Source: an uncultured Bacteroidota bacterium (lineage in GTDB: Bacteria > Bacteroidota > Bacteroidia > Chitinophagales > Chitinophagaceae). From it: 10,806 nt of DNA. Positions 466 to 10,109 of the stretch are shown here, piece after piece. The stretch covers positions 1 to 10,806 of the forward strand of contig CAIVKT010000420.1 of NCBI GenBank assembly GCA_903906615.1, read 5' to 3'. Within the stretch, counting starts at the first letter, position 1, and the number at the start of each line of letters is the position of its first letter. Under the pieces are notes generated by a model. It was given only the letters and a program-made list of their open reading frames with translations. It had not been told where the DNA came from and ran no database searches. The translations under genes and the position numbers were made by a program.

Positions 466-2604
466 ATGACAAAGCTATTTAGATATATACTGTTTGTTGT
501 GTTGTGCTTGTTTGCTGGCAACGTGGTACACGCACAAATTGTGCGTGATAACAGCAAATGGACGTTTGAGGCCAAAAAGATAAGCGGCGATAAGTATGAA
601 CTCATCGTGCATTGCAAGCTGCCGGATAAGTGGCATATCTACGCGCTGAACCCCGGTGGCGATGGGATGGAAATAGCCCCGGAGGTGAAGTTTACGAAGA
701 ATAGCGATGTGAAGCTGATAGGCGTGGTAAAGGAGCGGGGAAAGAGGATCAGCGAAGCAATGGTAGGGATAGATGGTAATGTGAACATCTACAAAAATAA
801 GGTGGACTATGTGCAGGAAGCTATCGTAAAAAGCAATGCGACCATTAAAGGCACATACAGTTACCAGATATGCGATGATAGTCAATGCCTGCCGCCTAAA
901 AGGGATAAGCCGTTTACCATCACAATAAGCGATGCCGGCGGCACGGCAGATGCTACCCCTGCGGCAGATACTGCTGATAACGGCAAAGCCACAAAAGATA
1001 CTACGAGCCTTGTGCAGACCGCTAATGTAAGCGGGGGCGGAGATACCACTAAGAGGACCGTAGCTGCAACAAATACGCCTTCGGGCAGTGCATCAGCAAA
1101 GGCGAAGGAAGAAAAATCATTGCTGTGGTTGTTCCTGGCAGCGCTGGCCGGAGGCCTTGCTGCGGTGATCACTCCGTGTGTATATTCAATGATACCCATC
1201 ACCGTGAGCTTCTTCACCAAAAGGAGCAAGACGCGTGCCGAAGGGTTGCGCAATGCGTTGTATTATTCGCTCTCCATCATCATCATATTTACGGTACTCG
1301 GGGTGCTGATCTCCGCTATCTTTGGCGCTAACGCACTGAATGCGCTCTCCACCAACTGGATCGCTAATCTTTTCTTCTTCGTCATTTTTGTCATCTTCGG
1401 CATATCCTTCCTTGGGGCATTTGAGATCACATTGCCCTCATCGTGGACAAGCAAAACAGATTCGCGCGCAGGGGTAGGGAGCTTTGGCGGTATTTTCTTT
1501 ATGGCGCTTACGCTGGCCATTGTTTCTTTCTCGTGTACCGGCCCAATAGTAGGCCCCCTGCTGGTGCTTGCAGGCAAGGGCGGCATTGCCGGCCCTGCGG
1601 TAGGTATGTTTGGTTTTTCAATTGGCCTTGCGTTGCCATTCGCGCTGTTTGCCATCTTCCCCGGTATGCTCAATAAAATGGCATCATCAGGCGGCTGGCT
1701 GAACCAGGTGAAAGTAGTGCTGGGTTTCATAGAACTGATGCTGGCGCTGAAATTCTTCTCTAATGCCGATCTCGCCAAAGGGTGGCGATTGCTGGATAGG
1801 GAAATATTCATAGCCATATGGATCGTGATCTCTGTTCTGCTCGGTTTCTATTTGCTCGGTAAATTGAAACTGTCGCACGATGATGCCTCTGCAAAGAATG
1901 TGTACGGGCAGGAGTATGTATCTATCTTCAAGCTTTTCCTGGCTATTACGTCGTTCTCGTTTGCCGTGTACTTGCTGCCGGGCATGTGGGGCGCACCGCT
2001 GAATGGCATCAGTGCATTTGTGCCACCAATAGGTACTTTTGATTCGTTTGGCGGCAGCGCAGCACCCGAGGCTAGCACTAATACGGAAAACAACGGGATA
2101 CACCCCGTGAAGTTTGTAAAGGATATGAAGCGTTTTGAGCCCCAGGCAGTAAAAAGCCTGGGACTAGTGACATACTTTGATTATGATGAGGCTGTAGAGG
2201 CTTCTAAAAAATTGAAGAAGCCCATCATGCTCGATTTTACGGGTATCAACTGTTCTAATTGCCGCAAGATGGAATCGCAGGTATGGTCGCAGCCGGAAGT
2301 GACGAAAAGGCTGAAAGAGGACTTTATCGTTGTGTCGCTGTACTGTGATTTTAATTCGATAGACTTGCCGAAGGAACTGCAACATTTTTCTAAAGACCTC
2401 AATTCACAGGTTGTGACTGTGGGCGATAAGAATGCCGAGCTGCAGGCAGCTAAGTTTGAATCGAGCACACAGCCATTCTATTTTTATGTGGATGAGAATG
2501 GTAATAAATTGGCAGACAAGGGTTACTCCTACAACCCGGATGTGCAGAAGTTTATAGATCACCTGGATAGTGTGAAAGCTAATTATAAGCGGACACACTC
2601 GTAA
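466..2604 (+). CDS. dsbD: Thiol:disulfide interchange protein DsbD (three-domain)
   Basis: This 712-residue inner-membrane protein should move reducing power from cytoplasmic thioredoxin to the periplasm. Residues 1-23 form a signal peptide ending VVHA. Residues 30-155 are the N-terminal domain with C136/C141 in CDDSQCLPP. Residues 156-216 are an Ala/Thr/Asp-rich linker. A multi-helix membrane domain spans about 218-510 and contains the conserved half motifs TPCVYSMIP (C238) and SFSCTGPIVGP (C357), the expected membrane cysteine pair. A thioredoxin-like domain covers about 545-712, with the active site DFTGINCSNCRKME (C596, C599) and a likely cis-proline at P670 (TQPFYF). All six redox cysteines expected for DsbD are present, so it looks functional. 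The ATG at 466 gives a proper signal peptide; no clear Shine-Dalgarno sequence is seen. It lies between single-domain relatives of its own two ends, suggesting one operon. The gene symbol rests on domain architecture. Confidence 0.93.
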   Translation: MTKLFRYILFVVLCLFAGNVVHAQIVRDNSKWTFEAKKISGDKYELIVHCKLPDKWHIYALNPGGDGMEIAPEVKFTKNSDVKLIGVVKERGKRISEAMVGIDGNVNIYKNKVDYVQEAIVKSNATIKGTYSYQICDDSQCLPPKRDKPFTITISDAGGTADATPAADTADNGKATKDTTSLVQTANVSGGGDTTKRTVAATNTPSGSASAKAKEEKSLLWLFLAALAGGLAAVITPCVYSMIPITVSFFTKRSKTRAEGLRNALYYSLSIIIIFTVLGVLISAIFGANALNALSTNWIANLFFFVIFVIFGISFLGAFEITLPSSWTSKTDSRAGVGSFGGIFFMALTLAIVSFSCTGPIVGPLLVLAGKGGIAGPAVGMFGFSIGLALPFALFAIFPGMLNKMASSGGWLNQVKVVLGFIELMLALKFFSNADLAKGWRLLDREIFIAIWIVISVLLGFYLLGKLKLSHDDASAKNVYGQEYVSIFKLFLAITSFSFAVYLLPGMWGAPLNGISAFVPPIGTFDSFGGSAAPEASTNTENNGIHPVKFVKDMKRFEPQAVKSLGLVTYFDYDEAVEASKKLKKPIMLDFTGINCSNCRKMESQVWSQPEVTKRLKEDFIVVSLYCDFNSIDLPKELQHFSKDLNSQVVTVGDKNAELQAAKFESSTQPFYFYVDENGNKLADKGYSYNPDVQKFIDHLDSVKANYKRTHS

Positions 2605-2615
2605 CCCCTTTGCCT

Positions 2616-3227
2616 ATGGGCCACTTCAGATACATATTCGTACTGTGCCTATTGGGATTGATGTTGGGTGGTAACGCACAGGGCCAAACAGCGAGGCGCA
2701 GGCGCACAAAGGACCTGCTGATACAGCCGGTAAGATATGTGGAGCGCATGAGGCTATATAAGCCAATGACCATTGAAGCGATAGGCCTCAATGTTTACTA
2801 CGACTATGATGAAGCGCTGGACGCCGCGAAGCAATTGAAGAAGCCGGTAATGCTCGACTTTACGGGCGTGAACTGTATGAATTGCCGGAAGATGGAGAAG
2901 GTTGTATGGTCGGACCCGGAGGTGGCAAAGCGTTTAAGAGAAGACTTCATTGTTGTTTCACTTTATGAAGATGTGCGCAAGATAGAATTGCCGCCCAGCC
3001 AGCAGTATTTTTCCAAGGCACTGAATAAACAAGTAAAAACGCTGGCAGACAGGAACCAGGATCTGCAGGAGTCAAATTTCTCATCCAACTCGCAACCTTT
3101 CTATTTTTTCATTGATGAAAATGAAAATAAGCTGGTAGAAGGTGGTTATGGTTACGACCCCAATGTGCAGAAATTTATTGCCCACCTGGATAATGTGATC
3201 GCCAGCTATAAGAAGACACATCCATAG
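2616..3227 (+). CDS. Secreted thioredoxin-like protein, homologous to the DsbD C-terminal domain
   Basis: This 203-residue protein starts at ATG 2616, 11 nt after the dsbD stop. A TTG two codons upstream is also in frame, but the ATG directly precedes a good signal peptide (about residues 1-22, hydrophobic FVLCLLGLMLGG). After a basic patch (ARRRR, 26-30), residues 40-203 align almost throughout with DsbD residues 549-712. They share YDYDEA, the active site DFTGVNCMNCRKME (C87, C90), EDFIVVSLY, the cis-Pro segment SQPFYFF (P161) and the end YKKTHP. It therefore looks like a duplicated DsbD thioredoxin domain released as a separate periplasmic protein. It probably exchanges electrons with the DsbD membrane domain or with client proteins. 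No transmembrane segment follows the signal peptide. The thioredoxin fold and secretion are well supported; the substrate is not known. Confidence 0.88.
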   Translation: MGHFRYIFVLCLLGLMLGGNAQGQTARRRRTKDLLIQPVRYVERMRLYKPMTIEAIGLNVYYDYDEALDAAKQLKKPVMLDFTGVNCMNCRKMEKVVWSDPEVAKRLREDFIVVSLYEDVRKIELPPSQQYFSKALNKQVKTLADRNQDLQESNFSSNSQPFYFFIDENENKLVEGGYGYDPNVQKFIAHLDNVIASYKKTHP

Positions 3228-4277: not shown

Positions 4278-5081
4278 GTGAAATATCTTGTTGCAGCCTT
4301 CCTTACGTTGACCAGCTTTTCCTCCTTTGCCCAAAACGAGCAATGGGACTACTATATAGCCAGGTTTGGCGACAAGCCGGGCTATGTAATGGTGGATATG
4401 AACCTGTACAACACCGCGCCTGATAAAAAATTTCCTAACCTCGTCATCACAGGCCCGCGCGGCCACAACTGCAATGCTAATGGCCTGCCCGGCAAAGAGG
4501 AAACAGCCGTGCTGGAAGATATACTCACAGCTACCGATAACTTTATCACAGGTGTTACAGCCAAGGTACTCACGGGTACCTTTACCTACAAATGCGAGCG
4601 CCTCAATTACTATTATGTGAAGGATACAGTAGGCATACGCAACGCGCTGGGCCGCATGTATAACCACAGCTACAAAGACTATGACTACGTGATAGAAATA
4701 CGGCCCGACCCGGAATGGACCTCTTACCGTACCTTCCTGTATCCTGATGAATCCTCGCGCAACTGGATGGACAATAATAAGATCATTACCAATCTGCTGC
4801 TCTCCGGCGATAGCCTCACTATGAAGCGCGACATCAATTACTCCTTCTACTTCCGTAGCGATACCGACCGCACTTCTTTTGCCAACTATGCCGTCAGTAA
4901 AGGCTATAAAACTGACCTGCCGGTTGCCGAGAAGGCCGCAAAAGCATCTTACCCATTAACTGTATCTGCCTATACTTATGTGAAGATGGACAGCATCTGC
5001 GCCACCACAACTGACCTCAAACAGCAGGCCACACTGCACCACGGCTACTACGAAGGCTGGGCCGCGCCACTGAAGCGGTAG
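4278..5081 (+). CDS. Secreted DUF695 protein with RraB-like C-terminal domain
   Basis: This 267-residue protein starts at GTG 4278; there is no in-frame ATG nearby, and the GTG directly begins a signal peptide (MKYLVAAFLTLTSFSSFAQ, cleavage after about residue 18). Residues 21-155 have the DUF695 pattern, opening with EQWDYYIARFGDKPGYVMVD and followed by Tyr-rich beta segments. Residues 165-265 resemble the RraB-type fold: FYFRSDTDRTSFANYAVSKGY is the usual 'F.s..dr..f...v...Gy' start, and GYYEGW (256-261) is the family's closing motif. RraB inhibits RNase E in enterobacteria, but a secreted copy cannot act there, so the domain is probably reused for something else. The gene appears to be single and is followed by a peptidase remnant. 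The domain call is from memory of the family pattern; function is unknown. Confidence 0.72.
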   Translation: MKYLVAAFLTLTSFSSFAQNEQWDYYIARFGDKPGYVMVDMNLYNTAPDKKFPNLVITGPRGHNCNANGLPGKEETAVLEDILTATDNFITGVTAKVLTGTFTYKCERLNYYYVKDTVGIRNALGRMYNHSYKDYDYVIEIRPDPEWTSYRTFLYPDESSRNWMDNNKIITNLLLSGDSLTMKRDINYSFYFRSDTDRTSFANYAVSKGYKTDLPVAEKAAKASYPLTVSAYTYVKMDSICATTTDLKQQATLHHGYYEGWAAPLKR

Positions 5082-8795: not shown

Positions 8796-9143
8796 TCAAT
8801 GTAAGGCTCCGTCATCAATGTAGATGTCCCCGGCACCACTCCCGTGAACAATGACCTCATCGCCCCTGCGGCGCTGGTAAGCGCCGGGCAGGGTAGCTAC
8901 GATGTCGTTTATGTTGGTGTAAGACATCACACTTAATCTTGCTCTTGTAAATACATATTTTATTGGCGTGTAGTTTGCCATTGGATCAGGCCAGGTGCGG
9001 CACTCAGGAACGACTGTTATTTCTGTCCTGGTTATAAGGTTGGCTGGTGTTACCGGTTTATAATTCTCACGCCCATCTTTCACCCATTGTGCCGCAGCAT
9101 GCAACGCAAAGAAGCTGAAGAGCAATGTGGTCAACACTTTCAT
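8796..9143 (-). CDS. Small secreted TonB-plug-like protein, distal copy, 115 aa
   Basis: ATG 9143 to TGA 8796-8798. Residues 1-19 are a signal peptide (MKVLTTLLFSFFALHAAAQ). Residues 70-115 follow the front half of a TonB-dependent receptor plug: MSYTNINDIVATLPGAYQRRR, then GDEVIVHGSGAGDIYIDDG. Bacteroidota receptors usually read LPTRDVN.(I/L)..T.GVYQ...G..(L/I)..GG.R....YYIDGV. The protein stops five residues past the YIDG position, whereas a receptor would continue through the rest of the plug and a beta barrel of several hundred residues. It is clearly a paralog of the next two genes (same motif, same end point). It is the last gene of the array, 17 nt behind its neighbour. The similarity is read by eye. 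A role in blocking, tuning or copying a receptor plug is speculation. Confidence 0.7.
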   Translation of the reverse strand: MKVLTTLLFSFFALHAAAQWVKDGRENYKPVTPANLITRTEITVVPECRTWPDPMANYTPIKYVFTRARLSVMSYTNINDIVATLPGAYQRRRGDEVIVHGSGAGDIYIDDGALH

Positions 9144-9160
9144 AATGATCTGTTTTAAAA

Positions 9161-9529
9161 CTACTGCCTGATGCCATCTATGTAGTAGGCATTGCCATCT
9201 GACTTGCCGCCATACATATGCAGCGCATCGCCACGGCGGCGTTGGTAGGTGCCGGGCACAGTGCTCAATATATCATTTACATTCATCGTGGGCATGCGCT
9301 CTATCTCGCTGGCATTAAATACATACCTCCCTGGCTCGCGCAGTTTTATCGTTTCTTTCGGCAATAGAGGCCGGAAATTAACCTCATCATCAATGATGTA
9401 CATGTTGCCTTGGGTGCGGCCGTCTATCACAGGCAATGGATCTATTTTGACCACAGCCCTTGCTGCTATATCCTGTGCATTTGCCTGCCAGGCGGAGGCT
9501 ACAAGTAATGCGATAATGATCTTTTTCAT
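9161..9529 (-). CDS. Small secreted TonB-plug-like protein, middle copy, 122 aa
   Basis: ATG 9529 to TAG 9161-9163. The signal peptide is MKKIIIALLVASAWQANAQ. The mature N terminus (IAARAVVKIDPLPV) is nearly the same as in the broken upstream copy. Residues 70-122 carry the clearest plug signature of the three: FNASEIERMPTMNVNDILST, VPGTYQRRRGDALHMYGG and NAYYIDGIRQ. This matches the receptor-plug pattern (E(I/L)..mP..(D/N)VN, GvYQ, GG, YYIDG). It ends two residues after the YIDG position region. An internal echo, GRTQGNMYIIDDEV (38-50), resembles the C-terminal KSDGNAYYIDGI and may be an old duplication. It lies 35 nt downstream of the broken copy and 17 nt upstream of the distal copy, so one transcript is likely. 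The upstream bases show no strong Shine-Dalgarno sequence. Confidence 0.72.
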   Translation of the reverse strand: MKKIIIALLVASAWQANAQDIAARAVVKIDPLPVIDGRTQGNMYIIDDEVNFRPLLPKETIKLREPGRYVFNASEIERMPTMNVNDILSTVPGTYQRRRGDALHMYGGKSDGNAYYIDGIRQ

Positions 9530-9564
9530 AACACATCCGTTTTATAATGAGCAATAGAATAACC

Positions 9565-10027
9565 CTATTGTACCAATCTGCCTTTTACGTAAGCTGGTTT
9601 TTGAATCGGGCTGCCGTATATGCTTGTCGCATCCCCCCTGCGCTTTTGGTAGGTGCCGGGTGTTAGCGCTACAATGTCATTCACGTCTGAAGTAGGCAGG
9701 TGGCTTAGTTCCTCCGCTGTAAAGAAACTATAATCAGGCCCAATATAACTTGAGGTCTTTGACTGATAGTTATACATGCTAGTAGTTATACATGCTAGTA
9801 GTTATACATGCTAGATTTGGTACAGTTCCATCTCTCATTTTCCATACAGTACCTGGGATTATGACTAAAGTACCATGAATACTAACATCCGTATTAGTTG
9901 CTGTTCTTTTTATTTTGCAATGGCTTACCGGCAAAGGCTCTATTTTGATTACAGCTCTTGCCGCAGTTTCCTGTGCTGCTGCCTGCCATGCCGAGGCTAC
10001 GAGTAATGTAATAATGATCGTTTTCAT
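9565..10027 (-). pseudogene. TonB-plug-like small secreted protein, promoter-proximal copy, frame broken by a 16-bp repeat
   Basis: The first half runs from ATG 10027 (preceded by AAAGGATTT, a fair ribosome site): signal peptide MKTIIITLLVASAWQAAAQ, then TAARAVIKIEPLPV as in the middle copy, ending at a TAG inside the repeat near 9779. The second half is in another frame from 9777 to TAG 9565-9567 and carries the plug-like part FFTAEELSHLPTSDVNDIV, TPGTYQKRRGDATSIYG. Between them lie three perfect 16-bp repeats. Two copies would join the halves in frame into a protein of about 148 residues. The end reads AYVKG where the paralogs have YYIDG or YIDDG, so the motif has drifted. The gene may be dead or reversibly switched off. 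An upstream in-frame ATG (10060) is less likely as a start. Confidence 0.7.
9767..9814 (+). repeat. Three perfect 16-bp tandem repeats inside a coding region
   Basis: TAGTTATACATGCTAG occurs three times without change at 9767, 9783 and 9799. The unit is not a multiple of three, so each copy shifts the minus-strand frame. With three copies the frame meets TAG in the third unit. With two copies it reads through (…ACT AGC ATG TAT AAC TAT CAG…) into the downstream half. Confidence 0.92.
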
Positions 10028-10109
10028 AAATCCTTTATTATATAGACGTAATATAATCATATTTTCATGGGTAATTACAAAAAAATAGTTGTTTTATGAC
10101 TTATAGCGT

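Follow-up and report, generated by a model that had tools for sequence, protein, structure and literature searches.

A tandem array of small proteins ending in a TonB-receptor half-plug, with a promoter element shared with receptor genes, from an uncultured Chitinophagaceae bacterium

This locus raises the question of whether half a TonB-receptor plug, encoded on its own, is the debris of a lost receptor or a protein with a job. The window (the whole stretch of 10,806 nucleotides that was analysed) makes up contig C420 of G000, an incomplete genome (3.54 Mb in 757 contigs, 85.7% complete), and it carries three tandem paralogues on its minus strand at 8796–10027. With a probability of roughly 0.45, we favour the reading that the half-plug is a selected periplasmic docking piece of a co-regulated envelope system and that the array is not a receptor remnant.

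Anatomy of the array

A preliminary description of the window had reported three adjacent small proteins with signal-peptide-like starts and a common motif near the C-terminus, and this arrangement was confirmed by a hidden Markov model (HMM) of the half-plug and by the open reading frames. The three genes lie 35 and 17 bp apart, and the stop codon of the last one (copy 3) lies 3 bp from a convergent gene. By eye, each copy starts with basic residues and shows a stretch of hydrophobic ones as well as an A-X-A↓Q-like site, and all carry (D/N)(V/I)NDI...PG.YQ(R/K)RRGD near the C-terminus. The motif had been said to run through YIDG in every copy. This is true as far as RRGD; YIDG itself is intact in copy 2 only, its place being taken by YVKG in copy 1 and YIDDG in copy 3.

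Copy 2 (9161–9529, minus strand) encodes an intact free-standing half-plug protein of 122 aa, in which the half-plug domain occupies residues 65–122 (9164–9337, minus strand; 99.7 bits, HMM positions 2–59). Copy 3 (8796–9143, minus strand) encodes a diverged half-plug protein of 115 aa; its reading frame is open and its half-plug lies at 8802–8969. Copy 1, previously taken for a third intact protein, is split by a frameshift. Its signal-peptide-like start and variable middle are in one minus-strand ORF that runs to a stop (9779–10027), and the motif is in another (9565–9777), which holds the half-plug (9568–9738) and has YVKGRLVQ as its last residues. The first 39 residues of copy 1 are 69% identical to those of copy 2.

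The frameshift coincides with three perfect tandem units of 16 bp (9767–9814, minus strand). As the unit length is not a multiple of three, every gain or loss of a repeat would change the frame of copy 1, and the break may have arisen by mutation, reflect slippage that switches the gene, or be an error of the assembly. A phase-variable array, with slippage at the repeat switching copy 1, would account for perfect units of such a length inside a coding region; we nevertheless think it improbable, because the repeat is present in one genome only and an assembly error or a single mutation would explain it equally well. The loss of the YIDG consensus from copies 1 and 3, together with the break in copy 1, points to local decay within the window, where copy 2 looks like the working copy.

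Homology, end point and selection

In a comparison with the Pfam Plug family (PF07715), copy 2 scored 28 bits (3.4e-6; cut-off 23.9). The match spans profile positions 10–67 of 107 and is followed by the stop codon; it is to the front half alone, and a whole plug with both halves was not found in copy 2. The Pfam search returned no match for copies 1 and 3. The profile check proposed in the preliminary description for the middle copy thus gave significant plug similarity. An HMM built without window sequences, from 13 other seeds including the receptor of the same genome, gave 61.8, 89.2 and 56.6 bits for copies 1, 2 and 3, respectively, and the remaining window matches scored 7.9 (within copy 2), 5.7, 2.9 and 0.7 bits. 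Copy 3 reached 79.3 bits with an HMM that included it. Against PDB sequences, a profile built from ten half-plugs matched Cir, the colicin I receptor, at 3.5e-4 and BtuB weakly (0.12, chain residues 27–85); the other weak matches were unrelated proteins. We are confident that the window proteins correspond to the front half of a TonB-receptor plug.

The BtuB plug has been described as two mechanically separate halves in force experiments, with residues 23–73 forming the weak half (PMC5413942), and residues 1–75 of FepA have been modelled likewise as a ‘half-plug’ (PMC8546555). Provided that the chain is numbered as the mature protein, the half-plug of ~58 residues would equal the force-labile half of BtuB plus the next strand, which ends in IDG, making the window domain ~12 residues longer than the force boundary. 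Evolution has here cut the plug near the mechanical boundary seen in BtuB, and its first half survives as a separate protein. Unlike the plugs of BtuB and FepA, the window proteins have no second half and no barrel, and they are separate and putatively exported. The proteins end where a barrel would follow the plug, and no barrel was found in the window at E ≤ 1e-3; one match at E = 5.7 elsewhere is at chance level. The type IX sorting tail TIGR04183 gave no match in the copies up to E = 10. Longer relatives of the half-plug keep a region like the YKKPLV stretch of the receptor, which by our own reading is a TonB box; no such stretch was seen by eye in the window copies.

The prediction of the structure of copy 2 alone gave blocks of pLDDT 70–87 within the half-plug, at a mean pLDDT of 66 and a pTM of 0.39, and a fold search with this model returned no significant match. 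The predicted structure lends no support to an autonomous fold of copy 2.

The family was examined in a genus set of 35 Flavipsychrobacter-like genomes, 34 of which have matches to the half-plug profile. Defining as free-standing those half-plugs that lie in an open frame under 330 aa, we found such frames in 21 of the 35 genomes (one at a contig edge and two with an early stop). The survey of genomes that had been proposed for such proteins also produced a tandem pair outside the genus, in G199, where two adjacent free-standing copies have 4 and 3 residues to the end, the second scoring 22 bits only. Also outside the genus, G123 has two free-standing copies, which continue for 5 and 16 residues after the match, and G138 has one that is cut by the contig. 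Among the literature matches listed, no paper dealt with free-standing half-plugs, as judged by title or the opening of the abstract.

The common end point noted in the preliminary description extends well beyond the window. The 22 short-frame loci outside the window and the three window copies make 25 frames, one of which runs off its contig; 22 of the 24 examined end 0–3 residues past the half-plug domain, as defined by an HMM that has many of the counted sequences among its seeds. With the window copies in the HMM, 0, 0 and 1 residues follow the match in the three copies. With the window-free HMM, the match ends at model position 53 in copy 1, leaving 6 residues, and at position 56 in copy 3, leaving 3. 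The orthologues L037 and L045 stop 13 positions earlier, so that they lack the last strand. Among 40 database matches, several of which are the same genes as the genome loci, 31 are free-standing and 28 of these end within 4 residues of the domain; P0015 and P0021 are shorter and P0020 is 18 residues longer. Of the remaining nine, some are fragments of receptors or vWA proteins, and the others are unrelated or have no such domain. One matching database protein is from Taibaiella sp. In P0025, which is counted among the 28, the last ~30 residues of a free-standing half-plug protein are duplicated in tandem, and the protein ends after an extra partial repeat.

In longer members of the family, which have a CarboxypepD_reg domain, the final half-plug comes after traces of an earlier one. 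A single member of 221 aa stands beside guaB in G021 where the window has three, a placement conserved between species. In the same neighbourhood, near guaB in G001, L063 (5554–7515) encodes a YfbK-like vWA protein with a CarboxypepD_reg domain and a partial half-plug. Elsewhere in the window, at 466–3227, a gene for a DsbD-like protein that includes a thioredoxin-like domain precedes one for another thioredoxin-like protein, and a gene with a signal-peptide-like start joins DUF695 and RraB domains (4278–5081); the latter is kept near guaB in G021 and G001.

Values of dN/dS, obtained with our own Nei–Gojobori script, were computable for the half-plug in five pairs. In all four pairs where both parts could be computed the half-plug value was below that of the rest of the protein: 0.08 versus 0.35 (L052/L055), 0.05 versus 0.28 (L053/L057), 0.11 versus 0.23 (L042/L046, half-plug synonymous sites near saturation) and 0.16 versus 0.39 (copy 2/L036). 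The fifth pair, L042/L047, gave 0.13 for the half-plug, again with synonymous sites near saturation, the rest being not computable. Half-plug synonymous sites were saturated in L037/L045, L046/L047 and copy 2/copy 3, and L037/L045 showed the weakest half-plug conservation among the between-genome pairs (pN/pS 0.40). Most neighbouring genes are under stronger constraint (0.01–0.23).

These results bear on whether the copies are remnants of duplicated TonB receptors that have lost their barrels. The frameshift in copy 1, the lack of YIDG in copy 3, the sharing of the half-plug domain by receptor and array and the presence in the genus of the small extra fragments L179 and L180 would all suit such an origin. 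Full-receptor remains beside the copies had been named as the sign of decay; a search with the receptor of the same genome brought up no barrel pieces at E ≤ 1e-3, neither in the window nor in eight related free-standing loci. Simple decay is rejected as a general explanation because of the common end, the purifying selection and this lack of adjoining barrel remains, and the promoter near the gene start, described below, also speaks against it. In a sample of 296 genomes of the phylum, moreover, all but two of the matches listed outside G000 belong to open frames that reach 820 aa or more, the two short-frame ones (G483 and G558) running through the whole plug. We leave decay a small chance only. 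We conclude that the half-plug is maintained as a unit by purifying selection, has a fixed end and is not a receptor remnant, in agreement with the earlier proposal of a defined domain kept by selection. Small Bacteroidota proteins annotated as ‘plug’ or ‘hypothetical’ need not be broken receptors.

A promoter element shared with receptor genes

The motif ACCCAAG-N15-TACGTCTWTA is present ~15 bp upstream of many free-standing gene starts. The sequence CGTC marks ECF promoters. In the window, this ECF-sigma-like element precedes copy 1 (10033–10072, minus strand); a 32-bp core (10041–10072) with one mismatch is followed by WATAAAG, and 13 bp separate the core from the ATG of copy 1. None of 200 shuffles of the window gave a match at up to 3 mismatches. 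Across the genus, the motif at ≤1 mismatch has 242 matches, in 35 of 35 genomes, compared with 2 for the reversed pattern.

We then scored the motif within 300 bp upstream of gene starts at ≤2 mismatches. It precedes 11 of the 21 free-standing genes tested, which are copy 1 and 20 of the 22 other loci (10 of the 20 being positive; L039 and L050 were left out as they have no clear start). Three others (L043, L053 and L057) have a variant of the promoter, and seven have nothing like the motif within 300 bp upstream. The motif also precedes 25 of 30 receptor genes with enough upstream sequence, a count that omits the receptor of G000, where the contig ends 100 bp upstream. It was present before 2 of 12 MuiA genes and 1 of 6 vWA genes. 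Among 220 other ORFs it preceded two, which both belong to the system: one encodes a CarboxypepD_reg protein and adjoins a half-plug gene, and the other is a MuiA gene with a half-plug. On this sequence evidence, the shared promoter type favours a link between the half-plugs and the receptor system, and it names candidate partners.

Downstream of the motif, 79 genes were read, representing part of all matches, with some sites read twice. In at least seven genomes there is an ECF sigma gene, 77–91% identical to L289, with the motif 186–297 bp upstream (L289:1657–2235 on contig C590 of G000, and L280, L266, L269, L275, L276 and L282); the gene scores under the NCBIfam cut-offs of TIGR02985 and NF058625. 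ExbB-like genes follow the motif in at least three genomes, and an M43 protease and receptors are also among the downstream genes. Type IX sorting tails were found in 6 of 10 tested downstream proteins, and four of these six have NHL-like repeats.

Because the same motif precedes the sigma gene in seven genomes, we infer that the L289-type sigma factor reads the promoter, and the free-standing half-plug genes probably belong to its regulon. The three genes of the array probably form one transcription unit behind the element, and the half-plugs would be made together with the receptor, ExbB-like proteins and type IX cargo and be exported to the periplasm through their signal-peptide-like starts. 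The 10 of 21 free-standing genes without a good promoter match count against this reading.

Among known systems, ECF sigma regulons with TonB receptors, of the FecI/FecR/FecA type, come close. As in these, one promoter type in the present system precedes both the ECF sigma gene and TonB receptor genes; unlike them, its regulon would include type IX cargo. With the sigma gene under its own promoter motif, the regulon, including type IX cargo and an ExbB-like gene, is apparently self-controlled. Also downstream of the motif, in the genome of the window, is a gene for a 270-aa CarboxypepD_reg protein (L293:1552–2361) that ends KTYTREEINNSPK, resembling the first residues of the half-plug cut short.

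Half-plugs in larger proteins and possible roles

A CarboxypepD_reg/TonB receptor of ~1300 residues is encoded in 32 of the 35 genomes of the genus. The front end of the one in G000, L061, is the closest full-length relative of the half-plugs in that genome (Plug 3.1e-6; barrel 3.6e-5, yet under the barrel cut-off). Unlike the window copies, it runs for 1084 residues past the half-plug, as expected from the earlier statement that receptor plugs continue much further.

The same half-plug has also been kept as a piece of unrelated envelope proteins, where it is embedded and not free-standing: MuiA proteins (TIGR02231) and YfbK-like vWA proteins. All 13 MuiA proteins examined in the genus have DUF4139 and DUF4140 with a whole or partial half-plug in one loop, and one of them matched TIGR02231 at 9e-83. 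Eleven of these half-plug matches end at model positions 55–60, like the free-standing ones, and two (L172 and L177) end at position 38; the front is nearly complete in just five of the 13. All six vWA proteins have YfbK_C, vWF_A and CarboxypepD_reg domains, with plug pieces of varied length.

We compared the receptors of 32 genomes with half-plugs of the same genome and of permuted genomes (20,000 permutations). On average, both embedded classes were closer to the receptor of the same genome than to others. For MuiA the mean score was 149.3 versus 115.0 permuted (p = 5e-5, the permutation floor), and the own receptor ranked first of 32 in 8 of 13 cases (6 of 13 with a 25-residue flank). For vWA the values were 174.0 versus 118.1 (p = 0.002), with the own receptor first in 5 of 6 cases, one a tie, and in 6 of 6 with the flank. 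MuiA and vWA could be compared with each other in 2 genomes only (p = 0.5). The free-standing class, which served as a control for base composition and whose members are not all orthologues, showed no within-genome matching with the receptor (107.8 versus 106.1, p = 0.23); the own receptor ranked first in 3 of 19 cases, one a tie. In a tree of 54 half-plugs there were 11 label changes, where 500 shuffles averaged 23.3 and never fell below 19; with 58 residues, weak by length, and labels assigned by frame length, we treat this tree as a lead only.

The lack of matching weighs on the preliminary suggestion of plug mimicry, in which a free half-plug would enter the barrel of its own receptor in trans, or bind the ligand, and so regulate the receptor. 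The sequence relation and the promoter type shared with the receptor speak for it, as does the isolated FepA plug, which binds its ligand though unfolded (Usher et al. 2001, as told in PMC11658791). The free-standing copies are, however, no closer to their own receptor than to others, although the power of this test is limited by having one copy per genome, not always orthologous. We regard mimicry of the own receptor as unlikely.

A further alternative is that the short genes are silent cassettes, donors that recombine with receptor or MuiA/vWA genes and so vary their plugs. Exchange would give the resemblance between embedded half-plugs and the own-genome receptor, and tandem copies occur both here and in another genus (L182). 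The resemblance, however, links the receptor with the embedded copies and not with the free-standing ones, many of which have their own promoter, signal peptide and stop. Recent gene conversion is also unlikely because nucleotide identity is only 0.51–0.70 in 13 own-genome pairs (6 vWA and 7 of the 13 MuiA). The cassette explanation is thus scarcely credible; the resemblance may reflect conversion in the distant past, grafting on several occasions or adaptation to one partner in common.

A separate half-plug that is kept under selection, often behind the promoter type of the receptor, suggests that half a plug has a job of its own. In the docking reading that we prefer, the last strand (Y-I/V-I/V-D-G), which is covered by the second half in a whole plug, would pair with the surface of a partner. 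This particular step is a tentative one, somewhat less probable than the reading as a whole. L037 and L045, which have no last strand, count against docking by that strand, and since the free copies do not track their own receptor, strictly the own receptor is a less likely partner. If the half-plug does work outside a barrel, it would offer a natural system for studying the moving half of the plug.

A broader version of docking would make the N-terminal half-plug an autonomous module of some Chitinophagaceae, in which one sigma factor controls the receptor, the free half-plugs and sometimes MuiA or vWA proteins. The embedded modules would match the receptor as if binding a common partner, and the free ones would have diversified and pair by the open last strand. 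We hold this to be a rather doubtful extension, because only five of the 13 modules in MuiA proteins approach completeness and the promoter precedes few MuiA or vWA genes. Were it true, receptor front ends would be a general adaptor set outside receptors.

In a sample of 60 genomes of the family, a MuiA-family match was found in 38 and exceeded the cut-off in 34. The loops of ten picked MuiA proteins contained CarboxypepD_reg (three), a complete plug (one), the back part of a plug (two), a half-plug (two) or neither (two). The sequences would fit repeated insertion of receptor front ends into the MuiA loop. Varied receptor front-end and plug pieces are held in the MuiA loops of other Chitinophagaceae genera (L204, L208, L210, L209, L215 and L218), and in L204, L208 and L210 a VVVIGYG-like stretch follows the CarboxypepD_reg domain.
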